Positions 13,957 to 37,205 of a stretch of 39,774 bases of DNA are shown piece by piece. The notes beneath the pieces were generated by a model. That model was not told the origin of the DNA, searched no databases, and was given only the letters and a program-made list of their open reading frames with translations. Each line of letters begins with the position of its first letter. Positions within the stretch are counted from its first letter, which is position 1. The position numbers and the translations under genes were made by a program. The stretch is from a virus: positions 1-39,774 of the IMG/VR virus record IMGVR_UViG_3300025577_000026. One strand, 5' to 3'.

Positions 13957-13959
13957 AAT

Positions 13960-14622
13960 TTAAATTACTTTAACTCCATACTCTTGAGATAACTGATTAT
14001 TAATTTCGTCCATACTTGGTTGACCTTTTACCGTAGCCCAACACACTATACTATATCTTTTTCCTCTTGTCACTGGTTCTACTCCGTGCATATAATAATG
14101 ACTGGAAGGGAAGCAAACCATCATACCAGGTTCAGGTCTTACACGAATATGATGTTCTGGGAAAATAAAATCTCCACCCTCAAAATCATCATTGAGATAA
14201 AAGACCATAGAAATATCTCTATCCGTAGATTTCTTCCAAATCTTTTCACCTCTTGGTGTGACCCAGATACTCTGCCCATCAATATGAGGTTTATAGTGTC
14301 CACCAATACCATAAGATAGAACCTGTGGGACTTCACTACTGGTTACCTCAATACCATAGAAAGGATTGATAACTTCTTTTACGGCATGATGAAGAAGTTC
14401 CGTAATCTTGGGATACAAATTTCCCATAGGAACAATTTGTGTGTCTCTTGTCTTCTTATCAACCTGCCATGATGTCTCACCTGTTCTATTCGTTGTCTCT
14501 GAATCAAAAACAGATAAATCTTCTGCGGGTGAAGATTTGATATGATTTACTAATTCTTGAAGTCCTTCTGAATTGATAATATTAGGACGAATGAGAATAT
14601 ATGATAATGGATTTTCAATCAT
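13960..14622 (-). CDS. 2-oxoglutarate/Fe(II) dioxygenase, prolyl-4-hydroxylase-like
   Basis: This 220-aa protein has a complete P4H-type active site: HxD at H113/D115 (GGHYKPHIDG), distal H179 (YYMHGVEPV) and R189 ten residues later (RGKRYSIVCW) for 2-oxoglutarate. The EGGDFIFPE stretch (148-156) is the usual GGxTxFP-like strand with Asp-Phe in place of Thr. It hydroxylates peptide or free substrates; proline in GPL or surface-loop positions of the neighbouring propeller proteins is a possible target, by context only. It lies between propeller protein A and the carbamoyltransferase and has an exact TATAAATA late promoter 19 nt upstream. Confidence 0.9.
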   Translation of the reverse strand: MIENPLSYILIRPNIINSEGLQELVNHIKSSPAEDLSVFDSETTNRTGETSWQVDKKTRDTQIVPMGNLYPKITELLHHAVKEVINPFYGIEVTSSEVPQVLSYGIGGHYKPHIDGQSIWVTPRGEKIWKKSTDRDISMVFYLNDDFEGGDFIFPEHHIRVRPEPGMMVCFPSSHYYMHGVEPVTRGKRYSIVCWATVKGQPSMDEINNQLSQEYGVKVI

Positions 14623-14640
14623 AATATATGGTATTTAAGG

Positions 14641-14648
14641 TATTTATA
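14641..14648 (-). promoter_or_regulatory. Exact T4-type late promoter TATAAATA before the dioxygenase
   Basis: The minus strand reads TATAAATACC, overlapping the stop codon of propeller gene A and 19 nt before the dioxygenase ATG. It indicates that the modification enzymes are expressed late with the structural genes. Confidence 0.6.
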
Positions 14649-19885: not shown

Positions 19886-19940
19886 ATAATCAATCTTTTG
19901 TTTATTATAGCATACTATTGTGGAAGTGCATTTGCTGCTG
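19884..19940 (-). repeat. 57-bp exact repeat, copy 1 (propeller B 3' end plus promoter)
   Basis: Bases 19884-19940 are identical to 28559-28615, 8675 bp away. On the minus strand the repeat holds the last codons of a propeller gene (ANALPQ, stop), an extended -10 element TGCTATAAT (19912-19904) and the leader up to the next gene's start. The genes that follow the two copies are unrelated. Confidence 0.85.
19904..19912 (-). promoter_or_regulatory. Extended -10 promoter element TGCTATAAT
   Basis: Perfect TATAAT with upstream TGC, 19 nt before the ATG at 19885; no recognisable -35. The same nonamer stands at 28579-28587 and 12551-12559 and in the early promoter at 9919-9927. Confidence 0.5.
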
Positions 19941-22900
19941 GTGAACATGCCATGGGCCAGTTCTTATCGAAAGAGAATGCATTCGCTCTTGCTACTGCCG
20001 TTGCGGTATCATTAGAATAATCAATACGATCTATGTGCCTTATAGCAGGAGATGGATCACCACCACCAAAGTAACCAAAGTTAGCATTACCTGTTCCTCC
20101 ATGTTGATTTCTACTAATAGTCAATGGTCCTTTGACTGCTGCTGTTGCTGTGTCATTAGAATAATCAATACGTTCTACTGTTGATTTTGCAGGATAACCA
20201 CCACCAATGTATCCAAAGTTGGCATTACCTGTTGCCGCATGACGACCTACACCCACATTTAATGGTCCTTTTGCCACTGCCGTTGCGGTATCATTAGCAT
20301 AATCTATACGATCCACTGTCGAAACAGCTGACCATCCACCAGTAATATAACCAAAGTCGGCATTACCTGTTCCTTTCGTTGTGTGTTGAGCAGAACTTAA
20401 TGGTCCTTTGACTGCTGCTGTTGCAGTGTCATTAGAATAATCAATACGGTCTACTGTGGATACTTTACTTGAAGGAGCTTGACCACCAGCAAAATAACCA
20501 AAGGAAGAATTACCCGTTGCTCCTATCCAATATTTGGCCACACTTAATGGTCCTTTTGCTACTGCTGTTGCGGTGTCATTATTATAATCAATACGATCTA
20601 CTGATGATTTTGGAAGTCCACCAGCAAAGTAACCAAAAGAACTATTACCTGTTGCTGCACCATAAATTCTACTAACACTTAAGTTACCTTTTTCTACTGC
20701 CGTTACGGTATCATTATTAAAATTGATACGATCCACTCTTGTCTGGCCTGGTGTTCCACCAGCAAAGTAACCGAAGGATGTTATTGGGAAGAATGGTTCT
20801 GGAGTATTTGTAACAAGTGCTGGACCCAATATTGCAGTAAATCCGCTTGCTCTGGCACTTACTGCTGAAAGACGATTTCTACCAACACCCAGTGGTCCTT
20901 TTGGTGATGCCGTTGCAGTATCATTAGAGTAATCAATACGATCTACTGTTGATTTTACACTAGGAGTACCACCACCAAAGTAACCAAAGTTAGCATTACT
21001 TGTTGCTCCTGTGTATGCTTTAGCAGCACTTAATGGTCCTTTTGCTAATGCTGTTGCAGTATCGTTTGAGTAATCAATACGGTCTACTGTTGATACTGCA
21101 CCAGGATTACCACCACCAAAGTAACCAAAGGAAGCATTACCTGTTGCTGTTATACCATATCTATCAACAGTTAATGGTCCTTTTGCTACTGCTGTTGCGG
21201 TGTCATTAGAGTAGTCAATACGGTTTACATATGTTTTTGAACCACTATCAGATCCACCACCAACATAACCAAAGTCTTGATTGCCTGCTCCACCATGATA
21301 TTTAAAAGGTGATGCCAGATTACCTTTTGCTACTGCTGTTGCGGTATCATTAGAATAATCAATGCGATCCACTAACTGAGGAGAAGGAACACCACCGGCA
21401 AAATAACCAAAGTTCTCATTACTCATTCCTGTGGAATATTTTCTAGCAGCACTTAATGGACCTCTTGATAATGCCGTGGCAGTATCATTAATGTAATCAA
21501 TACGTTGTACTGTTGAGAGATTATTATCTGAAGGATTTGTTCCACCACCAATATATCCAAATGATTGATTACCTACTCCTGTTCCTCCCATTCTCCATGT
21601 CTGGGTGTTTAGTGGTCCTTTTTCTACTGCTGTTGCGGTATCATTAGAGTAATCAATACGTTCTACTAATGTCAACCAGTTAGGATTTGTTGCGGTTTGA
21701 TATCCACCAGCAAAGTAACCGGTGTTAGGAGTCCCATAAGTCCCTGCCGCATAATTTACAATATTTTCAGTCGGGATTGCATTGGCTCTGGAACTTGATG
21801 CTCCACTATTCCTTAAAGAATGACTCAGTGGACCTTTAGGTGATGCGGTTGCAGTATCATTAGAGTAATCAACACGATCTACTGATGATAAATTATCATT
21901 ATTATTACCGGCACCACCACCAAAATAACCAAAAGAACTATCACCCGTTGCACATCCAGTACCTCTAGTTTGACTCAATGGTCCTTTGACTGCTGCCGTT
22001 GCGGTATCATTCGAATAATCAAGACGGTCAACTGTTGACACCCAATTATTGCTACCAGGAACACTATTATATCCACCAGCAAAGTAACCAAAGTCAGCAT
22101 TACCTGTTGCTCCAAATTCCCTTCTCTTTACAGACAATGGACCTTTCGGTGATGCCGTTGCGGTGTCATTAGAATAATCAATACGATCTATTGTTGTTAC
22201 TCTAGCACTTCCAGGCATTGCTTGTCCAATAGCAAAATAACCAAATGATTGATTGCCAGTTGCTGCCCCATCCTCTCCCCCAATGCTCAAATTACCTTTT
22301 ACTAATGCGGTTGCAGTATCACCAGAATAATCAATACGTTCTATTGATGTAGAATAAACTGTTCCTACCGAAGGATCAAATCCAGATCCACCAGCAATAT
22401 ATCCAAATGATTGATTACCTGTTGCTGACGATTTAGATCTACCAGCACTTAATGGTCCTTTGACTGATGCCGTAGCAGTATCATTACCATAATCAACACG
22501 GTCTACTGATGATAATGAAGGAGCACCACCACCAAAGTAACCAAAGGAAGCATTACCTGTTGCTGCTGAACGATATCTAGTAATACTTAATGGTCCTCTT
22601 GCCGATACTGTAGAGGTATCATTACTATAATCAATTCTAGAAACTGATGAATAGTAGACAGTGCTTGGGAAACTTGGTGAGTTAGATGGTTGCCATCCAC
22701 CAGCAAAGTAACCAGTGCCAAATCCTTGTGGTGCAGGAAGACTAAAAGCACCCAATGAGACTGGAACTTCTAAGATACCAGGTCCTTTGAGTGGTATTGC
22801 ATTTGCTCTGGAACTTGATGCTGCCATTACATACTTAGCAGCACTCAATGGTCCTTTGACTGATGCTGTTGCTGTGTCATTAGAATAATCTATACGACTT

Positions 22901-25617
22901 ACTGTTGATACTGAACCAGGATTACCACCACCAAAGTAACCAAAGTCAGCACTACCGGTTGCTACTACACCATACTTAGCAGCACTCAATGGTCCTTTTG
23001 ATGGTGTTGTTCCAGTGTCACTAGAATAATCAACACGATCTACTGTTGATAATGGACCAGGATTACCACCACCAAAGTAACCAAAGTTAGCATTACCTGT
23101 TGCTGCTAAGGAATATTTGGCAGAACTTAATGGTCCTCTCGCTGATGCCGTTGCAGTGTCATTAGAGTAGTCAATACGATCTATTGTTGAATCATTAGGA
23201 CTATTACCACCACCAAAGTAACCAAAGTTAGCATTACCTGTTGCTGCATTTCTTAATCTATTATAATCAGTCAATGGTCCTTTTACTACTGCCGTTGCCG
23301 TATCATTAGAATAACTAATTCTTTCTACTGTTGATATAGCGGGACTACCACCAGCAAAGTAACCAAAGTTTTGATTACCTGTAGCAGAGAGTAACTGTCT
23401 AGCAACAGTTAATGGTCCTTTTGCTACTGCAGTTGCGGTGTCATTAGAATAATCAATACGGTCCACCGTTGATATGTTAGGAGGAATCTGACCACCACCA
23501 AAGTAACCAAAGGAAGCATTACCTGTTGCTGCTAATCGTTTTCTAGCAACACTTAATGGTCCTTTAGATGATGCCGTGGCAGTGTCATTAGAGTAATCAA
23601 TACGATCTACTGTTGACTTAACGGGACCTCCACCACCACCAAAGTAACCAAAGTCAGTTCCTTGTGGTACTACATTTGGTCTTGCATCTGTTGATGCTAT
23701 AAATGTTTCTATATTTCCAGTATTAGTAGGAAGTGCATTTGCTGCTGCTGAGGTTGCTGTTAAACCATTTCTAGCAACACTTAATGGTCCTTTAGGTGAT
23801 GCCGTTGCAGTATCATTAGAATAGTCAATACGATCTACTGTTGAGTGACGATTGGGATTAAGATAACCACCACCAAAGTAACCAAAGGAAGCATTACCTG
23901 TTGCTGCTAAACCAAATCTAGCAAGACTTAATGGTCCTTTTGCTACTGCTGTTGCGGTGTCATTAGAGTAGTCAATACGGTCTACTGTTGATAAATAATC
24001 ACTTCCATATCCACCACCAAAGTAACCAAAGGAAGCATTACCTGTTGCTGCTAAAGCATTTCTAGCAAGACTTAATGGTCCTTTTGATGGTGTTGTTCCA
24101 GTGTCATTAGAATAATCAACACGGTCTACTGTTGATATTTTACCAGGAGAACCACCACCACCAAAGTAACCAAAAGAAGTATTACCTGTTGCTGCTAATT
24201 GATATCTAGCAGCACTCAATGGTCCTTTTGCTACTGCCGTTGCGGTATCATTAGAATAATCAATACGGTCTACATTTGTTTTTGGACTAGGACTATGACC
24301 ACCACCAAAGTAACCAAATGAAGCATTACCTGTTGCTGCCAAGTACGCGTTAACAATACTTAATTGTGTTCTTTGTGATATCGTTGGAGTATCATTAGTA
24401 TAATCAATACGGTCTACTCTTGAATATCCACCAGCAGCAAAGTAACCATGTGTTGAGTTTCCTGTTGCTGCTAAAGCCTGTCTAGCAACACTTAATGGTC
24501 CTTTTACTACTGCTGTTCCAGTGTCATTAGTGTAATCAATACGGTCTACTGTTGATGACGTTGATGGACCAAAACCACCACCAAAGTAACCATGGTTAAT
24601 TGTCCCTCTTGCAGTGATATAAGGAAGTCCATATGCTTTACGGCTTGTTGCTCCCATATAAAATCTAGCAACACTCAATGGTCCTTTTGCTACTGCCGTT
24701 GCGGTGTCATTAGAGTAATCAACACGATTTACATTGGCTTGATAACTTGCAAAGTAACCAAATTCAGAATTACCTGTTGCAGCACTTAAGTTAACGACGT
24801 TTACCAGAGGACCTTTTGCCGGTGCCGTTCCAGTATCACTAGAATAATCAATACGGTCTACTGTTGATACTGAAGTATTTCCTGGATTAACATAACCACC
24901 ACCAAAATAACCAAAGGAAGAATTACCTGTTGCCGAAAAAGATCTTCTAGTACCACTTAATGGTCCTTTTGGTGATGCTGTTGCGGTATCATTACCATAA
25001 TCAATACGGTCTACTGTTGATAATCCAGTTGTAGGGCTAGGAGTAGAACCACCACCAAAGTAACCAAATGATTGATTACCTGTTGCTGCCAATGATGCCC
25101 TAGCAACAGTTAATAGTCCTTTTGGTGATGCTGTTGCAGTGTCATTAGAATAGTCAATACGATCTACTGTGGATTTTGTAGCAGGAGCACCACCACCAAA
25201 GTAACCAAAGGAAGCATTGCCTGTTGCTGATGCATTGTATACAGAAATACTTAGGTTTCCTTTTGCTAATGCCGTTACTGTATCATTACCGTAATCAATA
25301 CGGTCTAACTTTGATGAAAAAGGAATACCACCACCAAAGTAACCAAAGGAAGCATTACCTGTTGCTGTTACATACCCTCTGGCAATACTCAATGGTCCTC
25401 TAACTGATGCCTTTGCTGCATCATTGGAGTAATCAATACGATCTACTGTTGTTACATAAACAGAAGAAGGATTCATACCACCAGCAAAGTATCCAAAAGG
25501 AGCAGGACCAGACGATAAAAAGGGACTCGGAGTATTCCAGACATCTCCTTTCGTGGACCAGTTGCCTGATAACTGCTCTTCATATACCTGTTTTAATCTA
25601 AATATTCCTCTAGGCAT
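19915..25617 (-). CDS. Kelch-like propeller adhesin B, six six-bladed propellers
   Basis: This 1900-aa protein is the largest of the three propeller adhesins: 36 kelch-like units in six groups of six. Linkers lie near 24.6, 23.7, 22.75, 21.75 and 20.8 kb. The N-terminus (MPRGIFRLKQVYEEQLSGNW, then STKGDVW) is the shared anchor module. Groups end with caps such as TSAAANALP and SSSRANAIP. Linkers include LKGPGILEVPVS and TYGTPNT, both also used in protein C, showing exchange between the genes. Most blades carry RIDYSNDTATA. The blade loops after GGG are the variable positions and would form one face of each propeller. Transcribed between a catalytically degenerate DUF6445-like gene and an intact one. 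Confidence 0.8.
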   Translation of the reverse strand: MPRGIFRLKQVYEEQLSGNWSTKGDVWNTPSPFLSSGPAPFGYFAGGMNPSSVYVTTVDRIDYSNDAAKASVRGPLSIARGYVTATGNASFGYFGGGIPFSSKLDRIDYGNDTVTALAKGNLSISVYNASATGNASFGYFGGGAPATKSTVDRIDYSNDTATASPKGLLTVARASLAATGNQSFGYFGGGSTPSPTTGLSTVDRIDYGNDTATASPKGPLSGTRRSFSATGNSSFGYFGGGYVNPGNTSVSTVDRIDYSSDTGTAPAKGPLVNVVNLSAATGNSEFGYFASYQANVNRVDYSNDTATAVAKGPLSVARFYMGATSRKAYGLPYITARGTINHGYFGGGFGPSTSSTVDRIDYTNDTGTAVVKGPLSVARQALAATGNSTHGYFAAGGYSRVDRIDYTNDTPTISQRTQLSIVNAYLAATGNASFGYFGGGHSPSPKTNVDRIDYSNDTATAVAKGPLSAARYQLAATGNTSFGYFGGGGSPGKISTVDRVDYSNDTGTTPSKGPLSLARNALAATGNASFGYFGGGYGSDYLSTVDRIDYSNDTATAVAKGPLSLARFGLAATGNASFGYFGGGYLNPNRHSTVDRIDYSNDTATASPKGPLSVARNGLTATSAAANALPTNTGNIETFIASTDARPNVVPQGTDFGYFGGGGGPVKSTVDRIDYSNDTATASSKGPLSVARKRLAATGNASFGYFGGGQIPPNISTVDRIDYSNDTATAVAKGPLTVARQLLSATGNQNFGYFAGGSPAISTVERISYSNDTATAVVKGPLTDYNRLRNAATGNANFGYFGGGNSPNDSTIDRIDYSNDTATASARGPLSSAKYSLAATGNANFGYFGGGNPGPLSTVDRVDYSSDTGTTPSKGPLSAAKYGVVATGSADFGYFGGGNPGSVSTVSRIDYSNDTATASVKGPLSAAKYVMAASSSRANAIPLKGPGILEVPVSLGAFSLPAPQGFGTGYFAGGWQPSNSPSFPSTVYYSSVSRIDYSNDTSTVSARGPLSITRYRSAATGNASFGYFGGGAPSLSSVDRVDYGNDTATASVKGPLSAGRSKSSATGNQSFGYIAGGSGFDPSVGTVYSTSIERIDYSGDTATALVKGNLSIGGEDGAATGNQSFGYFAIGQAMPGSARVTTIDRIDYSNDTATASPKGPLSVKRREFGATGNADFGYFAGGYNSVPGSNNWVSTVDRLDYSNDTATAAVKGPLSQTRGTGCATGDSSFGYFGGGAGNNNDNLSSVDRVDYSNDTATASPKGPLSHSLRNSGASSSRANAIPTENIVNYAAGTYGTPNTGYFAGGYQTATNPNWLTLVERIDYSNDTATAVEKGPLNTQTWRMGGTGVGNQSFGYIGGGTNPSDNNLSTVQRIDYINDTATALSRGPLSAARKYSTGMSNENFGYFAGGVPSPQLVDRIDYSNDTATAVAKGNLASPFKYHGGAGNQDFGYVGGGSDSGSKTYVNRIDYSNDTATAVAKGPLTVDRYGITATGNASFGYFGGGNPGAVSTVDRIDYSNDTATALAKGPLSAAKAYTGATSNANFGYFGGGTPSVKSTVDRIDYSNDTATASPKGPLGVGRNRLSAVSARASGFTAILGPALVTNTPEPFFPITSFGYFAGGTPGQTRVDRINFNNDTVTAVEKGNLSVSRIYGAATGNSSFGYFAGGLPKSSVDRIDYNNDTATAVAKGPLSVAKYWIGATGNSSFGYFAGGQAPSSKVSTVDRIDYSNDTATAAVKGPLSSAQHTTKGTGNADFGYITGGWSAVSTVDRIDYANDTATAVAKGPLNVGVGRHAATGNANFGYIGGGYPAKSTVERIDYSNDTATAAVKGPLTISRNQHGGTGNANFGYFGGGDPSPAIRHIDRIDYSNDTATAVARANAFSFDKNWPMACSPAANALPQ

Positions 25618-26144: not shown

Positions 26145-27899
26145 TCAACCTTGCAGTTTCTTTTGCTCCTCTTCTGGAGAACCAGCAATCATACCAAGAT
26201 TTTCACCAGTAACTTCTTGGATACCTGTAAGAACTTTCTTCTGAAGATCATTCAGGAAGTCCATCTTACCTTGAGGACTTTCGAGAACTTTATTCAGAGG
26301 CAAATAACCTTCTGGTAATTCATTTCTCTTATCAACAATTGCAGGTGCAGAAGCACGACGCATACTGTGTAGGTTACCAATAGAGATACCAGTTTGTGCC
26401 GCAACCATTTCATCCATAGCCTGGTCGGCAAATCTTCTTTCCCAATACTGTCCATCAGCATCAAGGAACTGCTCTCGGGTGACTGCTTTACCACCATTCT
26501 GTTCGGTAAGTTTCTCAAGAATCTTATCTAGGTGTTGCATCTGGTGGAGACGGTCACGAATCTCAAGTTCACAAGACTTCAGATAATGAGATAGTGTAAG
26601 TTCATCTAAATCAAACCAACACAATTTCTTGGAACCACCACCGGGTCCACCTTCTTCCCAAAAAATTGGTTGTGCTTTATCCTTATCTGCCCACTTAAAG
26701 TCAAACTCACGGACCTTTTCTTTCATCTCAATGAGTTTATACATATAACCTTCTGCCATCTGACGACGAGACTTCAGAGTATTCTCAAAGGCAACAGGAA
26801 GGGTATGAGTATCAAGAAGTGCAAACTTCTCTAACTGGAAATTAGTTCTGCCTTGTGCAAGTTCCTTATCACTATCCTCCCACCTCAGAACATTGGCAAA
26901 TGCTTGCTGTAGATATTCATCATCCATCACTGCCTGCTCAGAAGTGATGGGAGTATAAGCCAATTCAGTATTTTCTGTAGTCATGGGTGCTCCACTTGTA
27001 ATTTTAGTAATCAGTTTTTTCCACTGGTGTGCAATTTTTTTCCAGTCACACTTCTGTGAAATATGATTGGAAAGAGATTTTGAGATTTGGTTATAATATG
27101 TTCTGTCTCCCTCAAAATAATCTAAAGCAGTACAGCAAATCTCTGTGAATGTATTTAGAAAGTTTTCGGTAACCTCATATCCTTTGGTTGTTCGGGTTCC
27201 ATTTAAAGGAACAACCGAAGCAAAGTTCTCAGTTGCAACTTCTGAAAGTGCTCCAATATCAGTAATGATAGGATATGCACCACATTTCATTGCCTCTGCC
27301 ATTGAAACACAAAATGTTTCTTCCCAAATGTTTGGATGAATAAAAAATGCAGCATCTTGATAATGTTCTACAAGTTCTTCTTGATCCACTGCCGCAGAAT
27401 ATTCTACGTTAGGAAGTTTTTTTAGTTCCTCATACAGTTCTATATATGTGTCATTGAGAGGACCATATAAAGACATTGATGAGAAGATTTTAAACTTTGC
27501 ATCAGGATGTTTTGTATGAATTCTCCTAATAATATCGGGCATTAACTCTAGACCTTTATAAGGAATAGAAGTATGAATAAAAGTCTTAGTTTTATTTTCA
27601 GAATAGGTGAAGATATCATTCACACCATTTGAAATTACAGTAATTTTATCCTTTGGAATATGATGAAACTTAATCAGTTGCTCCTTTGCCCAATGAGAAG
27701 GAGTTACAATATGATCTACAGTCTCATGATTAAAATTTAAAAATACAGGTTGATCATATGCATGATGTGCCCATAAGATTTTATATGTTTTATTAGATTT
27801 TTTCAGTTCCTCTGGAAGATGAGATACTTCTACATCTTCAGGAAATTCATAATATTGTGAAAGATAATGAAATGAACTTTCAGTTGCTCCGGACTTCAT
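26145..27899 (-). CDS. GT4 glycosyltransferase fused to an unknown C-terminal domain
   Basis: This 584-aa protein has two parts. Residues 1-305 are a GT-B/GT4 glycosyltransferase: TPSHWAKEQLIKFHHIPKDK with VISNGVND, then the nucleotide-sugar site WEETFCVSMAEAMKCGAYPI with ITDIGALSE. The N-terminal Rossmann half is short. Residues 306-584 start MTTENTELAY and form a helical, charged domain (DLDELTLSHYLKSCELEIRD, QYWERRFADQAMDEMVAAQT) of a type I recall as a separate cyanophage protein. The ATG at codon 306 has GGAG five bases upstream, so the C-terminal part may also be made alone (26145-26984, 279 aa). It follows the GT-A gene and may glycosylate a virion or host surface component. Confidence 0.8.
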   Translation of the reverse strand: MKSGATESSFHYLSQYYEFPEDVEVSHLPEELKKSNKTYKILWAHHAYDQPVFLNFNHETVDHIVTPSHWAKEQLIKFHHIPKDKITVISNGVNDIFTYSENKTKTFIHTSIPYKGLELMPDIIRRIHTKHPDAKFKIFSSMSLYGPLNDTYIELYEELKKLPNVEYSAAVDQEELVEHYQDAAFFIHPNIWEETFCVSMAEAMKCGAYPIITDIGALSEVATENFASVVPLNGTRTTKGYEVTENFLNTFTEICCTALDYFEGDRTYYNQISKSLSNHISQKCDWKKIAHQWKKLITKITSGAPMTTENTELAYTPITSEQAVMDDEYLQQAFANVLRWEDSDKELAQGRTNFQLEKFALLDTHTLPVAFENTLKSRRQMAEGYMYKLIEMKEKVREFDFKWADKDKAQPIFWEEGGPGGGSKKLCWFDLDELTLSHYLKSCELEIRDRLHQMQHLDKILEKLTEQNGGKAVTREQFLDADGQYWERRFADQAMDEMVAAQTGISIGNLHSMRRASAPAIVDKRNELPEGYLPLNKVLESPQGKMDFLNDLQKKVLTGIQEVTGENLGMIAGSPEEEQKKLQG

Positions 27900-27901
27900 A
27901 A

Positions 27902-28555
27902 TTATTCAGTAAAGACGTGTGAACCGACGTGTTGTAGTTTGATTGTAGTATCTAGCCAATGAGTATACCCCGACATTCTAGCACGATAAAAGAAACTTTT
28001 ATCTTCTGATGCAAAACTGTCATCAATCTTTTCTTCTGCAAAGTAATGATATGAGTTATTCATCTCTGCTTCTGTTGGTGGATAGTTACTATCTTTGGTT
28101 GATGGTATGTATTTAAGATATGGAAATTTCTGTGCGATATCGGCAAAGACATTACGATGAATTATCACAAACCCCATACCATTTCCACCGACCTTAAGTA
28201 AATCACCCTTGCGTTCTTCTGGTTCTAAGACATCAACACAATACCGAATGGGTATTGTCTTCATTGGATATGTGCCAGAAACGATGTTCTCATTATGACT
28301 CAATAATCTTAGCACATCTTCTGGATTAAATCCAATATCACTATCAAGGAAAAACAGATATTCATGATCTGTATTGTTGATAAAAAAGTTAGCACACTTT
28401 GACCTTCCATGAGTAATCAGGGAAGAGTTTGCCTGAGTGAGAAGACCGTGCGGAATATTATTTCTTACTAAGAGTTTACCTAGATTAAACAAACTCATCG
28501 TTGTCTTTTCATTCACAATTCCCCCGTGACAGGGGAGTGCGATCATTATACTCAT
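27902..28555 (-). CDS. GT-A-fold glycosyltransferase-like protein
   Basis: This 217-aa protein starts MSIMIALPCHGGIVNEKTTM, then SSLITHGRSKCANFFI and YLFFLDSDIGFNPED. DSD (71-73) is the metal-binding DxD of GT-A enzymes, and the surrounding pattern matches the Mnn9/Van1/Anp1-like family seen in marine phages. VGGNGMGFVIIHRNVF and the C-terminal SEDKSFFYRARMSGY are also typical acceptor-side motifs. It is followed two bases later by the GT4 gene, forming a glycosyltransferase pair next to propeller gene C. Its leader lies in the 57-bp repeat with an extended -10 element. Confidence 0.85.
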   Translation of the reverse strand: MSIMIALPCHGGIVNEKTTMSLFNLGKLLVRNNIPHGLLTQANSSLITHGRSKCANFFINNTDHEYLFFLDSDIGFNPEDVLRLLSHNENIVSGTYPMKTIPIRYCVDVLEPEERKGDLLKVGGNGMGFVIIHRNVFADIAQKFPYLKYIPSTKDSNYPPTEAEMNNSYHYFAEEKIDDSFASEDKSFFYRARMSGYTHWLDTTIKLQHVGSHVFTE

Positions 28556-28558
28556 ATT

Positions 28559-28615
28559 ATATAATCAATCTTTTGTTTATTATAGCATACTATTGTGGAA
28601 GTGCATTTGCTGCTG
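28559..28615 (-). repeat. 57-bp exact repeat, copy 2 (propeller C 3' end plus promoter)
   Basis: Identical to 19884-19940. It includes the ANALPQ end of propeller C, the stop, and TGCTATAAT at 28587-28579. The following gene is a glycosyltransferase here and a DUF6445-like oxygenase at the other copy. Confidence 0.85.
28579..28587 (-). promoter_or_regulatory. Extended -10 promoter element TGCTATAAT before the GT-A gene
   Basis: Perfect TATAAT preceded by TGC, about 24 nt before the ATG at 28555, carried within the 57-bp repeat. No -35 match at normal spacing. Confidence 0.5.
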
Positions 28616-31600
28616 CTGAAGTTGCTCCCAAAGCACGTCTACCAACACTTAAGGGTCCTTTTGCTGATGCTGTTGCCGTATCGTTTGAGTAATCAACACG
28701 ATCTACTGATGATTTTGCAGGATTACCACCACCAAAATAACCGAATGAACTGTTACCTGTTGCCCCATGGTAATATCTAGTCGCACTTAATGGTCCTTTT
28801 ACTGATGCTGTTGCCGTATCGTTTGAGTAATCAATACGGTCCACTGTTGATACTGGAACCCCACCACCAAAGTAACCAAAGTTAGCATTACCAGTTCCTT
28901 TCGCATCACGTCTACCAACACTTAAGGGTCCTTTTGCTGATGCTGTTGCCGTATCGTTTGAGTAATCAATACGATCTACTGTTGATTTTGAACCAGGAGT
29001 ACCACTACCAAAATATCCAAAGGAAGCATTACCTGTTGCTCCCAAATCAAATCTAGCCTGACTTAATGGTCCTCTTACTGCTGCCGTTGCAGTATCATTA
29101 GAGTAATCAATACGGTCTACTGTTGAATAATTAGAATAACCAGCACCAAAGTAACCAAAATTAGCATTACCGGTTGCTGATAAACCATATCTAGCAGCAC
29201 TTAATGGTCCTTTTGGTGATGCTGTTGCGGTGTCATTAGAATAGTCAATACGATCTACTGTTGATTTTGAAGGACCACCACCACCAAAATAACCAAAAGA
29301 ACTATTACTTGTTGCTCCCATGTATCTTCTAGCAAGACTCAATGGTCCTTTTACTGCTGCCGTTGCAGTATCATTAGAGTAGTCAATACGATCTACTGTC
29401 GAATTTGTAAGAGCACCACCACCAAAGTATCCAAAGGTTGTTGGATTAAATGACCCTGCGACTGCAGCGGCATTAGAAACCACTGCTGGACCGACCACAG
29501 TAAATCCATTGGCTCTGGCACTTGCTGCTCCTAAGAGTCTTGTAGGATAAAGTAATGGTCCTCTTTTTGATGTGGTTGCGGTATCATTTGAATAATCAAT
29601 ACGTTGTACTGTTGATGTATCAAAAGGACTACTAGGAGTACCACCACCAGCAAAATAACCAAAGTCAGCAGTACCTGATGCTCCCGTCTGTGCTCTACTA
29701 CCGACTAATCGTCCTTTTGGTGATGCAGTTCCAGTGTCATTAGAATAATCAACACGATCTACTGTTGAGTAATAAGTTGGTGAGGGAGTAGTTCTACCAC
29801 CACCAAAGTAACCAAAGTCGGCATTACCTGTTGCTTGTACACCATATCTAGCAACACTTAATGGTCCTTTTAATGATGCCGTTGCAGTATCATTGGAGTA
29901 ATCAATACGATCCACTGTTGATCGCATGGTACTATATCCGGGACGATCACCTCCACCAAAGTAACCAAAAGATTGATTACCTGTTGCTGCTAATTCATTT
30001 CTAGCAAGACTTAATGGTCCTTTTGCTACTGCCGTTGCGGTGTCGTTTGAGTAATCTACACGATCCACTGATGATTTTGGACCAGGACCACCAACAAAGT
30101 AACCGAAAGAAGCATTACCTGTTGCTCCTCCAGAATTATGACTAGTATTTAATGATCCTTTTGCTACTGACGTTACGGTGTCATTTAAGTAATCAACACG
30201 AGAAGTAGGAGTGCCAGACGAAAAATAACCAAAAGAATCATTACCTGTTCCAATTAAACCTTGAAAGAAAGAAATTAATGGTCCTTTTAGTGATGCCGTT
30301 GCAGTGTCATTACTGTAATCAATTCTTTGTACTATTGACGGTCTAGCAGGAGAAAAACTACTACTTTGTCCAGCAGCAAAGTAACCGGTGTTAGGAGTCC
30401 CATAAGTTCCTGTCGCCATTGAGACTGGAACTTCTAAGATACCAGGTCCTTTGAGTGGGATTCCATTGGCTCTGGAACTTGATGTCCCCGAATCATATCT
30501 AGCAATACTCAATGGTCCTTTTACTGCTGCCGTAGCAGTGTCATTAGAGTAATCAATACGATCTACTGTTGCTCCTGGAGCACCACTATAAGCACCACCA
30601 AAGTAACCAAAGGAACTATTACCTGTTGCCGATGCATAATATCTAGTAGAACTTAATGGACCTCTTACTGATGCTGTTGCGGTGTCATTAGAGTAATCAA
30701 TACGTTCTACTGTTGATACAGAAGGATGACCAGCAGCAAAGTAACCAAAGTTAGCATTACCTGTTGATCCCAAATATCTTCTAGCAAGACTCAATGGTCC
30801 TTTTTCTACTGCCGTTGCAGTATCGTTGGAATAATCTATACGATCTACTGTTGAATATATACCAGCACCACCACCAAAATAACCAAAAGAACTATTGCCT
30901 GTTGCTGTCACACCATGTCTAGCAAGACTCAATGGTCCTTTGACTGCTGCCGTCGCAGTATCATTAGAGTAATCAATACGATCTACTGTTGATTTTGGAC
31001 CAGGAGAACCACCACCAAAGTAACCAAAAGAAGTATTACCTGTTGCCGCATGGTAAGTTCTAGCAAGACTCAATGGTCCTTTTACTGATGCCGTTGCAGT
31101 ATCATTAGAATAATCAACACGGTCTACTGTTGAATATGAACCACCACCACCAAAGTAACCAAAGTTTTGATTGCCGGTTGCTCTCACACCACGTCTACCA
31201 ACACTTAATGGTCCTTTTGCTGATGCCGTTGCAGTATCATTCGAGTAATCAATACGATCTACTGATGATTTTGCAGGAGCACCACCACCAAAGTAACCAG
31301 TGTCAAATCCTTGTGGTACTACGTCAGGTCTTACTGATGATGCCGGGAATAATGTTGTCTGCGGAAGTCCATTAGCCTGAGAACTTGATGCTGCCAAAGC
31401 ATATCTACCAACACTTAATGGTCCTTTTGCTGATGCCGTTGCAGTGTCATTAGAGTAATCAATACGATCTACTGATGATAATGCACCAGGAGTCACACTA
31501 CCACCAAAGTAACCAAAGGAACTATTACCTGTTGCTCCTAAAGCACTTCTAGCAACACTCAATGGTCCTTTTGCTGATGCCGTTGCAGTGTCATTAGAAT

Positions 31601-32333
31601 AATCAATACGATCTACTGATGATGCTGCTGCAGGATAAGAACCACCAAAGTAACCAAAGGAAGCATTACCAGTTGCTCCCATGTACCATTTAGCAACAGT
31701 TAATGGACCTTTGACTGATGCTGTTCCAGTATCATTACTATAATCAATACGATCTACTGTTGATAATGGACCAGGACCACCACCACCAAAGTAACCAAAG
31801 GAAGCATTACCAGTTGCTGCTGAGAGATATTTAATAATACTTAATGGTCCTTTAGGTGATGCTGTTTCTGTGTCGTTAGAGTAATCTATACGGTCCACTG
31901 TTGATACTCCAGCACCACCACCAAAGTATCCGAAAGAACTATTACCTGTTGCTGCTAAACCATACCTAGCAAGACTTAATGGTCCTTTTGGTGATGCCGT
32001 TGCAGTGTCATTAGAGTAATCAATACGGTCTACTCTTGATAATGGACCAGGAAAACCACCAGCAAAGTAACCAAAGGAAGCATTACCTGTTGCTGCCAAA
32101 TTAGATGTAGCAACAGTTAACGGTCCTTTGACTGCTGCTGTTGCGGTATCATTAGAATAATCAACACGGTCTACTGTTGATGTAACAGGATAAGAACCAG
32201 AAAAGTAACCAAAAGGAAGTGCCTTAGTAAAAGGACTCGGAGTTAACCAGACATCTTCTTTCGTGGACCATTGCCCTTCTATCTGCAGTTGATAAATCTG
32301 CTCTAGACCAAATACATCATTTCTTATTCCCAT
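28590..32333 (-). CDS. Kelch-like propeller adhesin C, four six-bladed propellers
   Basis: This 1247-aa protein has 24 kelch-like units in four groups of six. Linkers lie near 31.3, 30.4 and 29.5 kb. The start MGIRNDVFGLEQIYQLQIEG, then QWSTKEDVWLTPSPF, aligns with the N-termini of A and B. Linker text VVPQG, LKGPGILEVPVS and TYGTPNT recurs in B. Blade sequences are more uniform than in A; many DNA units differ only in the loop after GGG. The ending ANALPQ is shared with B. Transcribed directly after the 1619-aa fibre gene with a 12-bp gap, so it is likely a virion component of the same fibre system. Confidence 0.8.
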   Translation of the reverse strand: MGIRNDVFGLEQIYQLQIEGQWSTKEDVWLTPSPFTKALPFGYFSGSYPVTSTVDRVDYSNDTATAAVKGPLTVATSNLAATGNASFGYFAGGFPGPLSRVDRIDYSNDTATASPKGPLSLARYGLAATGNSSFGYFGGGAGVSTVDRIDYSNDTETASPKGPLSIIKYLSAATGNASFGYFGGGGPGPLSTVDRIDYSNDTGTASVKGPLTVAKWYMGATGNASFGYFGGSYPAAASSVDRIDYSNDTATASAKGPLSVARSALGATGNSSFGYFGGSVTPGALSSVDRIDYSNDTATASAKGPLSVGRYALAASSSQANGLPQTTLFPASSVRPDVVPQGFDTGYFGGGAPAKSSVDRIDYSNDTATASAKGPLSVGRRGVRATGNQNFGYFGGGGSYSTVDRVDYSNDTATASVKGPLSLARTYHAATGNTSFGYFGGGSPGPKSTVDRIDYSNDTATAAVKGPLSLARHGVTATGNSSFGYFGGGAGIYSTVDRIDYSNDTATAVEKGPLSLARRYLGSTGNANFGYFAAGHPSVSTVERIDYSNDTATASVRGPLSSTRYYASATGNSSFGYFGGAYSGAPGATVDRIDYSNDTATAAVKGPLSIARYDSGTSSSRANGIPLKGPGILEVPVSMATGTYGTPNTGYFAAGQSSSFSPARPSIVQRIDYSNDTATASLKGPLISFFQGLIGTGNDSFGYFSSGTPTSRVDYLNDTVTSVAKGSLNTSHNSGGATGNASFGYFVGGPGPKSSVDRVDYSNDTATAVAKGPLSLARNELAATGNQSFGYFGGGDRPGYSTMRSTVDRIDYSNDTATASLKGPLSVARYGVQATGNADFGYFGGGRTTPSPTYYSTVDRVDYSNDTGTASPKGRLVGSRAQTGASGTADFGYFAGGGTPSSPFDTSTVQRIDYSNDTATTSKRGPLLYPTRLLGAASARANGFTVVGPAVVSNAAAVAGSFNPTTFGYFGGGALTNSTVDRIDYSNDTATAAVKGPLSLARRYMGATSNSSFGYFGGGGPSKSTVDRIDYSNDTATASPKGPLSAARYGLSATGNANFGYFGAGYSNYSTVDRIDYSNDTATAAVRGPLSQARFDLGATGNASFGYFGSGTPGSKSTVDRIDYSNDTATASAKGPLSVGRRDAKGTGNANFGYFGGGVPVSTVDRIDYSNDTATASVKGPLSATRYYHGATGNSSFGYFGGGNPAKSSVDRVDYSNDTATASAKGPLSVGRRALGATSAAANALPQ

Positions 32334-32345
32334 TTTATTCTACCC

Positions 32346-35300
32346 TCAGGATGTTATTTTCTTGCCGGAAATGATGACATCAACAGTTGATGTTGACCCA
32401 ACCTCAACTTCAATTTTAGCACCAGTCTCAATTCTCTTTGGTCTATCCAATATATCTACCGTAGAGTATCTTGGTATAATTAAATCTTTAGCAAGATAAG
32501 ATGTTGTTGTTCCGTTCGTAATCTTAATAGAAATCGGGAAATCACCAGTATCAGTTCTGTTTGCAAATCCAATTTTTTCAATTGCTGTTGGATTAGATGT
32601 TGATGTATATAGGGTAATTGTATCAGTGCTATTAATAGTAGTGGTAGAGGCAAACTTACTAATATAATCAGTGCTTGTAAATTCACTATAATTCATATAA
32701 ACTTCTGCGGCATTACTGACTCCAGTGTATCCATCATTTGTGGACCACATCTTAATTACATCCGATGGACCGGCAACAATTGGATTTTTAATTAATTCAA
32801 TCAAACCACCATTAACAATTGGGACATTATAAGCAATATAAGTTTGTTCTGCTGCTGTTGCATCCTGAATAGAAGCAATAATATTAACGGTTGTTCCAAC
32901 ACCAACAGAAGCATCAATATTCGCAACATTAATAGACTCAATTACATATTGTTTGCCTGATGTTGATGGGAAAGTAAATACCGTTGACTCAAAAGATAGT
33001 GGAGCAATTTGTCTAGAACTTGTAATTCCAGTATAAAACTCACCATTAGATGATGGTGATACTATATTAGTTAAACTAGAACCATCACCAGCAAATGATG
33101 TGGCAGTTACAACTCCGGTAGCATTAATACCACTAGAATTTATTGTTACTGCAGCACCTACAACAATTGATTCTCCACTATTCCCAATGTAAATCTTACC
33201 ACCCATGGCAGCATGAGATGTACACTGATAATAAAGAACATCTGGAGCATCAAACTGAACATTCCAATTTAAAGTAACTCCATTTCCGGCATCATTATTA
33301 GTTATTCCATCATTATATTGTGTTCCTGTCGATCCATTTGGAGTGCTTTGAATTCTGAATGGATGACCACCACTACTATTTTTGAAATTATATTTTTGAC
33401 CTCTTACAAGATAAATTGAAGGATCATTTTCGGCACCAGTAAGTCCGGGTCCGGTAAATGTATAGTCACTTGATCCGTTAGCTCCCAATACCCATTCAGA
33501 AATCGCAGCATCTAAAGAAGTAGCAGTTACAACACCAGTAACATTTAATCCGCCAGTTCCGGTTATAAACTTACTATTAAGATCTAAGTTACCACCAAGT
33601 TGTGGAGTAGTGTCTTCTACTACATTCTTAAGGAATGTGCTTGCTAACTTACCATCGGCAATAGAACCTGCTAACTGAGCATTAGTAATTGTACCACTTA
33701 AGGATGATGTTGGGTAGTTAGTAGCATCAGATAGATTAAATGCCGGTGTTGAATCAGAAGCACCTAAGTCAACAGATACTCCACCAAAGGAAACACTATC
33801 GTTTGTTAATGCAGAGTTAGGAATTGATGTTAAGCTAGCACCAGAACCACTAAATGATGTAGCAGTTAATGCACCTGTGCTTGAGTTAAAGGTTAAATTA
33901 GTTCCACTCTTAGGTGCTAAGTCTCCTGTTGCTGCTGTTGCAAATAGTGGGAAACAAGTAGTATCAGAACTTTCATCGGCAACTGTAATGGTAGTAGATG
34001 CCGGTAAATTAGTTAAGGAAGCACCAGAACCAGAGAATGCTACTGCCGTAAATAAACCAGTGCTTGGATTATAACTTAATCCAGTATCAGTTTCGGCACC
34101 TTGTGCTCCAGTAGCTCCATCTACAAATACTGGATATACAGTTTCGTTTGCTGAGTTATTAGCAGTTACTGTAAAGGTAGCAGACTCTATATTATATGTG
34201 CCAGACATTCTTGCTGCTGGCACGACACCCGAAGTGAGTTCACTTGCGTATAAAGCAGTTAATCCTGCACCATTACCACTATGAGCACCGGTGATTGTGT
34301 TGGCACTCAGCAATGTGGCAGTTAGTGTTCCATTAGAAGAATTGAAAGTAAGATTAGTTCCACTCTTAGGTGCTAAGTCTCCTGTTGCTGCTGTTGCAAA
34401 TAGTGGGAAACAAGTAGTATCAGAACTTTCATCGGCAACTGTTACATTAGTCGCAGTTGTCGATGATGTTGCATTACCACTGAAAGTTGTGGCAGTCACA
34501 ACACCGGAGACATTAATACCACCTGTTCCAGATATAAACTTACTATTAAGATCTAAGTTACCACCTAATTGTGGAGTAGTGTCTTCTACTACATTCTTAA
34601 GGAATGTGCTTGCCAACTTACCATCGGCAATAGAACCTGCTAACTGTGCATTAGTAATAGTTCCGGTTAAGGATGATGTAGGATAATCGGTAGCATCAGA
34701 TAGATTAAATGCTGGAGTAGCATCCGTTTGTCCTAAATCTAGGGATACTCCACCAAATGAAACACTATCGTTTGTTAATGCAGAGTTAGGAATTGATGTT
34801 AGGTTTGCACCAGAACCATGGAATAATGTTGCTGTTACACTATTGATTCCGGAAATATTAGTAGAATTATCACCTATAATATTACCATTTGCAGTAATAT
34901 TATTAGTTACTGCAACAGTATCAAATGTTGGAGTATCCGATACTGTTATCCTTGCAGTACTACCAAGTCCAACCGCAGAGACAGAAACATTATTGCCGAC
35001 AACATCAATTGCCGCAAATGTATATCCAGTGCCAACTGCAACACCTTCATCAAAAATTTGAAGTCCCTCAATTCTCTGATTAATCAAATTATTAAGATTT
35101 TGACCGTCACCATAGAATGCCGTTGCACTAATAATACCGGTAGATGCATAAAACGTAATACCAGTACCAACATTTACATCATTGGCAAATGTAGTGACAC
35201 CAGAAATATTTGGAATCGTAGTAGTTCCAGTAACATTCAGACTTGAGAAAGTAGGAGTATCAGTTAATGTAATAGTAGCACCAACACCAGATGCTGTTGC

Positions 35301-37205
35301 TGTTAAATTAGAACCAACAAAATTAATATTTTTAACACTACTTGCAGTGCCAACTAGAGATCCTTCTTCTCTTATAGTGACACCAACATCAGCAATTTGA
35401 CCTGCATTAATACCAATTAAATTAGAACCAGAACCATAAAATGATGTTGCCGTTACACTATTGATACCAGAAATATTAGTGGCACTATCACCTATAATAT
35501 TACCATTTGCATTCACATTCCCAGAGACTGTAAGTGCTCCTAATGTTCCAACACTCGTTAATGAAGAGTTGATAACACCACTACCAAGAGTATCGGAAGT
35601 TAAAACATCAGTTCCAGCAATCTCATAATGTTTACCCGATGCTAGATTCCAGTTCTCACTAGACATTAATGCAGATGTTGCATTATTCCAGGTGATAAAC
35701 TTTCTAATACTTGTAGCACCGATACCAAGTCCGGCACCATCGAGTAATGAGTTTGTTGATACTGTGGATGCAATTCCTATATTAAAATCACCAAGTTCAA
35801 TTTTATCTACATCAACAATAAATTCTGTTCCATCTACATATAAATCACCTCTAATTCTAACAGACCCGGAAGTTGTACCAGCTCCTGCAGGAGAGGGATC
35901 AATCCAAATTTCTGATGGACCTTCAATATATGCAGTATTTCCGGCACCATTCGCAATAGATATACCAATTCCAGTGGTAGTTAACTTACCAGTTGCATTT
36001 AATGATGCTGTAGTAATTATTCCAGATACATTTACATTATCAAGTTCAGTATGTCCATTAACATCTAATCCGGTTAACGTTCCAACTGATGTAATGTTTG
36101 TTTGTGCCGCAGTTTGTAATGTTCCCGATAATGTCGTAGCAGTAACACCAGCAATACCGGTTATGTTTGTAGAGTTATCTCCGGCAATATTACCATTGGC
36201 AGTTATATCACCAGAAACTGTTAAAGCACCTAATGTTCCAACTGATGTAATATTGGTCTGAGCAGCAGTATTAACTGTTCCTGCCAAGTTACCAGTAAAT
36301 GTAGTTGCAGTAATAGCACCACTTACATTTACGTCATCTAATTCAGTATGCCCATTAACATCTAATCCGGTTAACGTTCCAACTGATGTGACATTTGTTT
36401 GTGCCGCAGTTTGTAATGTTCCACTTAGAGTTGTTGCCGTAACACCAGCAATACCGGTTATGTTTGTAGAGTTATCTCCGGCAATATTACCATTGGCAGT
36501 TATATCACCAGAAACTGTTAATGTACTTAGAGTTCCAACTGATGTAATGTTAGGTTGTACCGCAGTATTAACTGTTCCTGCCAAGTTACCAGTGAATGTG
36601 GTAGCAGTAATGGCACCACTTACATTTACGTCATCTAATTCAGTATGACCATCTACATCTATAGAACTCTTAAATTCAGCAGCACCAGTAAAGGTAGAAA
36701 GACCAGAAATAGAAAGTGCTGATCCAACTAAATTATCAGCAGACACTGATGATCCAGTAAATTCACCAAATACACTACTATACAATCTTGTAGCTGTTAC
36801 AAATCCAGCAATATAAACATTATCACTTACATATAAATCATTTTTAAATGTTCCTAAACCTACAAATGTAGAAACTCCAGATACATTTACATTATCAAGT
36901 TCGGTATGACCATCTACATCTATAGAACCATTAAAGTCGGCAGCACCGGCAAATGTAGAAACACCAGATACATTTAATTGACTAAAGTTTACTTGTCCAG
37001 TCGATACGTCAATATTACCAGCAGTTAATATTCCACTAATTTTTATATCACCACGAACTTCTAATTCCGAAGTAGGTTCAAAAATTGTAGTGCCAATACC
37101 AACTCGACCAACAACCTCTAATACCTTTTGGTTATCAGTACTTCCTTCTATTCCAATTTTTTGTTGTTGATTTCTTCCACTAAGGAATCTAATTGGTGCT
37201 GCCAT
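32346..37205 (-). CDS. Long tail-fibre-like protein with repeats and a cupredoxin-like domain
   Basis: This 1619-aa protein starts MAAPIRFLSGRNQQQKIGIE and has an N-terminal GIGTTxxxPTSELEVRGDIK block typical of marine phage fibre proteins. Residues about 60-1240 are beta-repeat units (TATTFSGN, DVNGHTELDDVNVSG, LTVSGDITANGNIAGDNS) likely forming a fibrous stalk. Residues about 1245-1340 form a distinct domain with LVRGQKYNFKN, GGHPFRIQ and YYQCTSHAAMGGKIYI, giving His, Cys, His and Met in cupredoxin order. The last 110 residues resemble the separate 113-aa protein encoded just upstream. Function as a tail or lateral fibre is inferred from composition and neighbours. Confidence 0.75.
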   Translation of the reverse strand: MAAPIRFLSGRNQQQKIGIEGSTDNQKVLEVVGRVGIGTTIFEPTSELEVRGDIKISGILTAGNIDVSTGQVNFSQLNVSGVSTFAGAADFNGSIDVDGHTELDNVNVSGVSTFVGLGTFKNDLYVSDNVYIAGFVTATRLYSSVFGEFTGSSVSADNLVGSALSISGLSTFTGAAEFKSSIDVDGHTELDDVNVSGAITATTFTGNLAGTVNTAVQPNITSVGTLSTLTVSGDITANGNIAGDNSTNITGIAGVTATTLSGTLQTAAQTNVTSVGTLTGLDVNGHTELDDVNVSGAITATTFTGNLAGTVNTAAQTNITSVGTLGALTVSGDITANGNIAGDNSTNITGIAGVTATTLSGTLQTAAQTNITSVGTLTGLDVNGHTELDNVNVSGIITTASLNATGKLTTTGIGISIANGAGNTAYIEGPSEIWIDPSPAGAGTTSGSVRIRGDLYVDGTEFIVDVDKIELGDFNIGIASTVSTNSLLDGAGLGIGATSIRKFITWNNATSALMSSENWNLASGKHYEIAGTDVLTSDTLGSGVINSSLTSVGTLGALTVSGNVNANGNIIGDSATNISGINSVTATSFYGSGSNLIGINAGQIADVGVTIREEGSLVGTASSVKNINFVGSNLTATASGVGATITLTDTPTFSSLNVTGTTTIPNISGVTTFANDVNVGTGITFYASTGIISATAFYGDGQNLNNLINQRIEGLQIFDEGVAVGTGYTFAAIDVVGNNVSVSAVGLGSTARITVSDTPTFDTVAVTNNITANGNIIGDNSTNISGINSVTATLFHGSGANLTSIPNSALTNDSVSFGGVSLDLGQTDATPAFNLSDATDYPTSSLTGTITNAQLAGSIADGKLASTFLKNVVEDTTPQLGGNLDLNSKFISGTGGINVSGVVTATTFSGNATSSTTATNVTVADESSDTTCFPLFATAATGDLAPKSGTNLTFNSSNGTLTATLLSANTITGAHSGNGAGLTALYASELTSGVVPAARMSGTYNIESATFTVTANNSANETVYPVFVDGATGAQGAETDTGLSYNPSTGLFTAVAFSGSGASLTNLPASTTITVADESSDTTCFPLFATAATGDLAPKSGTNLTFNSSTGALTATSFSGSGASLTSIPNSALTNDSVSFGGVSVDLGASDSTPAFNLSDATNYPTSSLSGTITNAQLAGSIADGKLASTFLKNVVEDTTPQLGGNLDLNSKFITGTGGLNVTGVVTATSLDAAISEWVLGANGSSDYTFTGPGLTGAENDPSIYLVRGQKYNFKNSSGGHPFRIQSTPNGSTGTQYNDGITNNDAGNGVTLNWNVQFDAPDVLYYQCTSHAAMGGKIYIGNSGESIVVGAAVTINSSGINATGVVTATSFAGDGSSLTNIVSPSSNGEFYTGITSSRQIAPLSFESTVFTFPSTSGKQYVIESINVANIDASVGVGTTVNIIASIQDATAAEQTYIAYNVPIVNGGLIELIKNPIVAGPSDVIKMWSTNDGYTGVSNAAEVYMNYSEFTSTDYISKFASTTTINSTDTITLYTSTSNPTAIEKIGFANRTDTGDFPISIKITNGTTTSYLAKDLIIPRYSTVDILDRPKRIETGAKIEVEVGSTSTVDVIISGKKITS
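33897..34442 (-). repeat. Exact 90-bp direct repeat within the fibre gene
   Basis: Bases 33897-33986 recur unchanged at 34353-34442 (offset 456 bp, 152 codons), encoding TVADESSDTTCFPLFATAAT and the following residues. Larger diverged copies surround it (about 33.54-33.84 kb against 34.5-34.8 kb), and another module repeats with a 297-bp offset near 36.15 and 36.45 kb. Confidence 0.8.

Follow-up and report, generated by a model that had tools for sequence, protein, structure and literature searches.

The window analysed here, i.e., the whole stretch of 39,774 bases, is the record of a marine virus of bacteria, with T4-like genes for a baseplate protein, tail tube, gp53, gp32, gp59, PhoH and ThyX. 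Several large fibre genes are also present. One of them encodes a tail fibre of 1619 residues, in which a cupredoxin domain with a candidate copper site is found. The features are as follows.

32346..37205, minus strand: tail fibre gene carrying the domain, 1619 aa (matches to tail-fibre, baseplate-wedge and gp9-connector families of PHROGs)
33186..33500, minus strand: cupredoxin domain, residues 1236-1340 (AlphaFold2 pLDDT 94.2; Foldseek; VIA Z 11.3 to 2dv6)
33363..33365, minus strand: His1281, candidate first copper ligand, in the HPF motif (structural register; joint conservation with Cys1328 and His1331)
33300..33302, minus strand: Thr1302, conserved column relaxed upon loss of the site (Thr in 178 of 199 site-bearing copies and in 5 of the 26 site-less copies having a letter there), possibly a second-sphere residue
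33222..33224, minus strand: Cys1328, candidate copper thiolate ligand (aligned with the Cys of plastocyanin and amicyanin)
33213..33215, minus strand: His1331, candidate second His ligand (profile alignment to the PDB; ligand-masked conservation counts; comparison with the site-less lineage)
33204..33206, minus strand: Met1334, candidate axial ligand (on the axial Met/Gln, counting from the shared alignment end)

The surroundings of the gene are rich in large proteins. Those encoded at 14644-18447, 19915-25617 and 28590-32333 (minus strand) have 1267, 1900 and 1247 residues, and each matches phrog_19111, for which no function is assigned there, in five to eight stretches. Judged by these matches, they are a paralogous family of giant repeat proteins adjoining the fibre. 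Genes of the Nol-like carbamoyltransferase, 2OG-Fe(II) oxygenase and glycosyltransferase types lie amid the fibre genes at 12547-14622 and 26145-28555 (minus strand) and perhaps serve the modification of the virion or host surface. A stand-alone TnsA-like endonuclease N-terminal domain (PF08722, 1.3e-21) is encoded amid the T4-like tail genes at 2492-2929 on the plus strand.

Residues 849-1341 of the fibre align with positions 174-409 of the phrog_677 profile, which has 412 positions and is named 'baseplate wedge tail fiber protein connector'. This match reflects a shared module and says nothing for the 1619-residue fibre being a connector. Megablast of the fibre region against phages gave no match. 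Stretches of the GVVTATS type can be read in the sequence just before residue 1233 and again after residue 1340, and the domain seems to be placed on the fibre like a bead between them. Profile searches detected one copy of the domain in the window.

The initial annotation had placed a cupredoxin-like domain at about residues 1245-1340, based on short motifs. The motifs are where it had put them. LVRGQ lies at residue 1266; GGHPFRIQ begins at residue 1279, with codons from 33371, and YYQCTSH begins at residue 1325, with codons from 33233. The end at 1340 was kept, but the domain starts earlier, at residue 1236. The ligand loop has the spacing C-x2-H-x2-M. Cys, His and Met are scarce in the whole fibre (3, 9 and 6 residues, respectively), and a loose pattern (H-x30-70-C-x2-5-H-x2-5-M) was obtained in 3 of 20,000 shuffles of it. 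The same pattern occurs in one other of the 41 stop-to-stop frames of at least 100 residues in the window. In a first scan of IMG/VR for relatives, in which one of six seeds contains the Cys, all four ligand residues were invariant in 57 of 57 distinct copies, the copy of the window included. A chance motif is ruled out by the scarcity of Cys, His and Met, the rarity in shuffles, and this invariance.

The AlphaFold2 model of the domain (29-row alignment) has a pLDDT of 94.2, a pTM of 0.86 and eight strands. It predicts a two-sheet Greek-key beta-sandwich of about 100 residues, as is characteristic of the cupredoxin fold. The structure prediction proposed as a check in the initial annotation thus supports the domain with confidence, as do the structure and profile comparisons. 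In a Foldseek search against the PDB, 69 chains matched at E<=0.001, and the best 50 of these all have cupredoxin domains, counting the rows of coagulation factors V and VIII, which we take to contain them. The matches listed include rusticyanin, plastocyanin, copper nitrite reductase, multicopper oxidases, pseudoazurin and amicyanin. With VIA, residues 24-131 of 2dv6 (Hyphomicrobium nitrite reductase) were superposed with a Z score of 11.3 and an rmsd of 1.9 over 93 residues, and rusticyanin reached Z scores of 9.3-10.4. Rusticyanin and the N-terminal domain of the Hyphomicrobium enzyme are the best whole-domain structural matches (Z 9.3-11.3, 93-96 residues); identity is, however, only 18-19%, and both are redox proteins. 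The loop of rusticyanin is also longer (C-x4-H-x4-M; entry titles give His143 and Met148). Matches to the model in BFVD (E about 1e-6) include small 'beta-sandwich proteins' from Pithovirus and Marseillevirus metagenome viruses, and the fold may thus also exist in giant viruses.

At the sequence level, a search of the PDB with the single domain sequence returned a glycoside hydrolase alone (E 0.043), and a profile was therefore needed. A 54-row profile of diverse family members matched plastocyanin (5.8e-5), copper nitrite reductase (1.6e-4) and amicyanin (2.5e-4), as well as rusticyanin. The best 34 rows are all cupredoxin proteins; the first unrelated match is penicillin acylase (E 0.028), which makes up 8 of the 60 rows listed. 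Curated families remained below their cut-offs. Pfam PF00127 Copper-bind scored 16.3 bits (E 0.013; gathering cut-off 21.2 bits) and matched 12 of 29 relatives at E<=5. PF25489 (At5g54830-like) scored 16.9 bits, below its cut-off of 27 bits, and matched 20 of 29 relatives at E<=5, the best at 8.1e-6. NCBIfam TIGR02657 (amicyanin, cut-off 110.2 bits) did not match the fibre and gave 14.7 bits for a bacterial relative (L110). Hence, the domain is a cupredoxin outside the present models. Comparisons by hhalign with a small azurin-like set (probability 85%, over 32 columns only) and a small multicopper oxidase set (probability 3%, HPF opposite HPFH) are weak and do not form part of the main evidence.

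The positions of the ligands were examined with a second AlphaFold2 model, comprising 62 residues from G1280 (46-row alignment, pLDDT 93.8). The register was read from where the alignment of this cut model with each PDB match begins and ends. Its residue 1 aligns with residue 84 of rusticyanin, 39 of pseudoazurin, 52 of amicyanin, 36 of plastocyanin, 43 of umecyanin and 44 of mavicyanin, and His1281 thus falls on residues 85, 40, 53, 37, 44 and 45, respectively. Further positions of residue 1 and His1281 are 53/54 in versutus amicyanin, 38/39 in plastocyanin 1m9w, 84/85 in AcoP and 113/114 in a CuA chimera. Going by what we take to be the ligand numbers of these known structures, His1281 lies on a copper His in 38 of the 41 rows listed, which are all the rows that could be judged and cover eight kinds of protein, a good part of the rows being mutants of a single protein. 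The remaining three are 5fc9, 9cck and 9vyg_m, the last being a phage tail chain. The assumed numbers agree with Met148Gln, His143Met, M98A and P52G in the titles of PDB entries.

Met1334 is situated seven residues before the shared C-terminal end. In matches whose loops are not engineered, it corresponds to residues 148 (rusticyanin), 86 (pseudoazurin), 98 (amicyanin), 92 (plastocyanin), 95 (umecyanin), 96 (mavicyanin) and 171. As the C-x2-H-x2-M loop is as long as that of amicyanin, the positions of the Cys and the second His are fixed as well. In the first model, Cys1328 ends the strand E91-96, and His1331 and Met1334 precede the strand E103-108. A His, a Cys, a second His and an axial Met/Gln are thus found in order, with all but the first His on the loop that leads into the last strand. 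The Z scores of the cut model are low (2.0-3.5) because it is half a domain, and such values alone may reflect a common arrangement only; the weight of this comparison lies in the agreement of the register. A sequence-only HMMER alignment with plastocyanin placed His1281 two residues before His37, in conflict with the structural register. It was set aside, as the 38 rows that could be judged agree otherwise. In VIA, chain m of 9vyg (127 residues), from the tail complex of cyanopodophage Pan3, ranks first for the half-domain model, with a Z score of 3.5, an rmsd of 3.0 and 7% identity.

Among known copper proteins, amicyanin of Paracoccus has much in common with the fibre domain. Both have the cupredoxin fold and, in the HMMER alignment, a C-x2-H-x2-M loop, and in the cut model His1281 and Met1334 lie on His53 and Met98. 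Amicyanin is, however, a free periplasmic electron carrier of about 105 residues, with 15-19% identity to the cut model over 48-49 aligned residues. It has PHN where the phage domain has HPF, and the phage domain possesses a Y-N-x-G-[IV]-T-N-N loop. Plastocyanin heads the sequence matches of the family profile in the PDB and has the same ligand positions, but its loop is C-x2-H-x4-M and PF00127 stays below its cut-off. The type 1 centre of multicopper oxidases (Cu-oxidase_2, HP[FIM]H) shares the HPF around the first His; HPFHLH there is replaced by HPFRIQ in the fibre, which lacks the further His and hence a trinuclear centre.

The ligand set is that of electron-transfer cupredoxins, and a redox function was therefore considered. 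Cycling between Cu(I) and Cu(II) could, e.g., quench superoxide at the cell surface, or it could sense the reducing periplasm and set off a change in the tail. Judged by the role of gp9 in T4, connectors of the gp9 type are placed where a trigger could act. No gene for a redox partner was, however, recognised in the subset of ORFs of the window that were scanned, and we consider a redox role highly unlikely.

The conservation of the site was then counted in a larger set of relatives. Two scans had used seeds with ligand letters (LYYQCT[SA]H, YYQCT[SA]H), and the cellular and part of the viral counts consequently lean towards the site. The recount was therefore made on the fetched loci with a ligand-masked profile, in which the four ligand columns were blanked. 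Loci added by a scan with ligand-free seeds were the best 80 of at least 600 stretches. Removal of copies shorter than 80 residues and of exact duplicates reduced 431 hits to 237 distinct copies. Of these, 204 have all four residues, one is cut after the Cys and 32 are without the site. The alignment shows H-C-H-M in 199; a further six were inspected by hand, five of which have all four residues. In L210 and L218, the first His is a place or two off, and in L093 the Met lies just past the hit. The loop is shorter in L339 and L340 (C-x2-H-x1-M), which were grouped with the site-bearing copies. So was L319, which breaks off after the Cys and whose site is unproven. Longer ligand loops were observed in L126 and L146; the length of the loop varies across these sequences while the ligand residues stay.

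Loss of Cys, His or Met in close homologues had been named in the initial annotation as an outcome that would speak against a copper site. No copy lacking just one ligand was found among the 237. The other such outcome, ligand side chains far apart in the model, is not suggested by the structural register either, in which the ligands fall on copper-site positions of known structures. Copies with and without the site number 153 and 31 in IMG/VR, 19 and 1 in named phages, and 33 and 0 in loci of cellular genomes. As IMG/VR is the source of 31 of the 32 site-less copies, 26 of which were retrieved by means of the S-B43 sequence, 32 of 237 is not a natural frequency. Both His are gone in all 32, and the Cys is gone too in 31; the exception, L343, keeps the Cys without the two His and the Met.

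The largest site-less lineage is of the S-B43 type and comprises 27 copies, i.e., L344-L387 and L389 (26 distinct) and S-B43 (L189). It has Phe, Ala/Ser and Thr/Val/Ile in place of the ligands. The column of Cys1328 holds Cys in 199 of 199 H-C-H-M copies and Ala or Ser in all 27 copies of this lineage. Among the 27 columns that are at least 85% conserved in H-C-H-M copies, only five have changed, namely those of His1281, Gly1294, Thr1302, Cys1328 and His1331. Met1334 is kept, and, going by these sequences, it is tied to the site less tightly than the other three. As the lineage changed only the His, Cys and His and two other columns, the fold does not appear to need the ligands, and their conservation elsewhere points to a metal. 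In sequence terms, this lineage is a natural site-less control. His1281 is 47 residues away from Cys1328, and its joint fate with Cys1328 and His1331 is best explained by one shared metal site. The type 1 ligand set of the initial annotation is therefore supported by the fold, the profile match, the register and the joint loss or retention.

Changes between the two states were followed in a quick tree search (85 rows, 98 columns), in which many forks are unresolved. Six changes are needed on the best tree, and only two are forced by branches with strong support. Closely related copies differ in the whole site at once. The site-keeping L388 adjoins the site-less S-B43 lineage (SH-aLRT 94), and L180, which keeps the site, adjoins L296, which lost it (SH-aLRT 90); neither is starred. 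Site-less lineages with an otherwise intact family sequence indicate that the module can work without metal. It might accordingly be supposed that the fold persists with a site that is a vestige or that holds a soft metal other than copper, e.g., Zn(II). A vestigial site would, however, be expected to lose its ligands singly, which is the case in 0 of 237 copies, one of them being cut after the Cys, and this explanation is quite unlikely.

By tblastn, relatives of the domain were detected in 355 of 50,697 phage records at E<=0.01, and 342 of them cover at least 80% of the domain. Many of these records are near-copies, such as isolates of one phage or GenBank/RefSeq twins. By name, 344 are cyanophages (Synechococcus 270, 'Cyanophage' 55, Prochlorococcus 19); the others are named as Marine (4), Methylophilales (4), Pelagibacter (1), uncultured (1) and Actinomycetia (1). 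The annotations among the matches listed are 'baseplate wedge tail fiber connector', 'tail fiber protein', 'hypothetical protein' and similar. In sixteen named phage genomes, which were chosen for having a hit, the domain occupies 29 places. In several named phages, it lies at the C-terminus of the annotated baseplate-fibre connector. For instance, it ends the 406-residue connector of Syn9, whose N-terminal 58 residues match T4-like coliphages at their gp9/gp10 genes; the coliphage match stops there. In the T7-like podovirus P-GSP1, the domain is located near the N-terminus of a 666-residue protein, which gave no phmmer match in the PDB at E<=1. Most of the 220 distinct viral copies lie inside their reading frames (140), the others at the N-terminus (48) or the C-terminus (32); some of these frames are truncated where a contig or locus ends. 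The domain is best regarded as a mobile bead, employed by marine T4-like and T7-like phages in both tail fibres and the connectors of fibres. Phage structural proteins also contain Ig-like domains, which are likewise promiscuous beta-sandwich modules found at many positions of tail proteins, but in contrast to the cupredoxin module they are not known to have a conserved metal site.

These positions also bear on whether copper could guide adsorption. As a 'copper Trojan horse', the virion would have its copper recognised or exchanged by a metal-binding or uptake structure on the host surface. The site is kept across the tails of many marine phages, and a related idea, iron held at HxH motifs of tail fibres such as T4 gp37 (Ferrojan/Trojan Horse), is set out for marine phages in a published paper (PMC11705849). 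Both cases concern a metal on a phage fibre; the iron is held by HxH there, whereas a cupredoxin site is present here. HxH iron sites in this fibre were rejected, as none of its 1619 residues form such a motif. Receptor contact would not be expected at the C-terminus of a connector or near the N-terminus in P-GSP1, and the hosts differ, including cyanobacteria and Methylophilales. Adsorption by means of copper is thus unlikely to be the main function.

Relatives also occur in cells. The 30 cellular loci comprise contigs that look phage-like by eye (L082, L083, L084, L086) as well as proteins encoded on chromosomes, those of Bacteroidota among them. Going by a crude pattern, 14 of 31 cellular ORFs have a lipobox, two of which are doubtful (L100, L105), and L098, L099 and L109 are lipoprotein-like by eye. 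Some cellular relatives, as far as their sequences tell, look like exported surface lipoproteins of non-photosynthetic bacteria. The exported compartment is where type 1 copper proteins work. No copper-handling partner was seen by eye in the gene neighbourhoods of eight bacterial relatives. In Marivirga, a lipoprotein-like ORF (L094:3462-5294) combines four DUF7282 stretches with a cupredoxin domain at the C-terminus. Within the picocyanobacterial family, 6 of 121 genomes match the profile, five of them weakly; the three matches examined keep a His, a Cys, a His and a Met.

With 344 of 355 named carriers being cyanophages by name and plastocyanin as the best PDB sequence match, mimicry of host plastocyanin by a cyanophage fibre suggests itself, and the initial annotation had found it tempting. 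It is barely credible in view of the amicyanin-type loop, the relatives in a Methylophilales phage and in marine bacterial lipoproteins, and the few picocyanobacterial genomes that match. Moreover, plastocyanin resides in the thylakoid lumen, beyond the reach of a fibre.

Overall, the domain is probably a type 1 cupredoxin with an amicyanin-type loop, serving as a mobile bead of fibres and connectors and binding one copper, which may act as a lock. What the computations show is the fold, where the ligands lie and that they are conserved jointly, and from these we infer that a single copper would be bound via His1281, Cys1328, His1331 and Met1334. The relatives in the tails of many known cyanobacterial viruses suggest that these virus particles may bind copper. 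Regarding the role of the metal, a structural lock is ranked first and metal-guided adsorption second. In type 1 copper proteins, the site exists already in the apo form and the metal adds stability, and the cytosol is kept poor in copper. The virion would be put together in the host cytosol while the preformed site is still without metal, and copper would be picked up after lysis, in oxic seawater. The metal would then lock the bead and stiffen the fibre or connector; a homotrimeric fibre would have three sites. Since fibres are made in a copper-poor cytosol and released to oxic water, loading after lysis and stiffening would be the simplest role. As the fold persists without the site in some tails, copper is dispensable there and would be an advantage but no requirement of the fold.

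Cupredoxins are familiar as electron carriers and as domains of oxidases. Here, a cupredoxin is a repeated building block of virion tails, with a candidate site that is kept or lost as a unit. This retention or loss spans very different marine phages, and the site-less counterparts provide natural controls. Among the open-access papers listed in literature searches, no title or abstract start concerned a cupredoxin, plastocyanin or copper-binding domain in a phage tail or virion, although some of these proteins may already be 'cupredoxin-like' in automatic database annotation. Among the open-access papers searched, 'cupredoxin' and 'cyanophage' co-occur in one paper, on Borg elements (PMC9605863), and the iron-binding HxH motifs of fibres are the nearest published idea (PMC11705849). 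The cryo-EM study of cyanopodovirus P-SCSP1u resolved a jelly-roll N-terminus of the fibre; in its main text, 'metal' is absent and 'copper' refers to a grid only (PMC10575957).

The finding leads to the testable claim that cyanophage virions contain copper, for which cultured Syn9, P-SSM2, S-RIM2 and P-GSP1 are suited; their connector and fibre proteins are annotated only as tail or hypothetical proteins. It would tie the stability or attachment of phage particles to a trace metal of relevance in the ocean. A more far-reaching and doubtful possibility is that marine tailed phages are copper particles by design, with a conserved type 1 module on their connectors and fibres that takes its copper from the host or from seawater at lysis and is needed for attachment or tail triggering. 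If true, phage infection in the ocean would depend on copper, phages would represent a copper-carrying ligand pool, and the iron 'Trojan horse' idea would have its copper counterpart.
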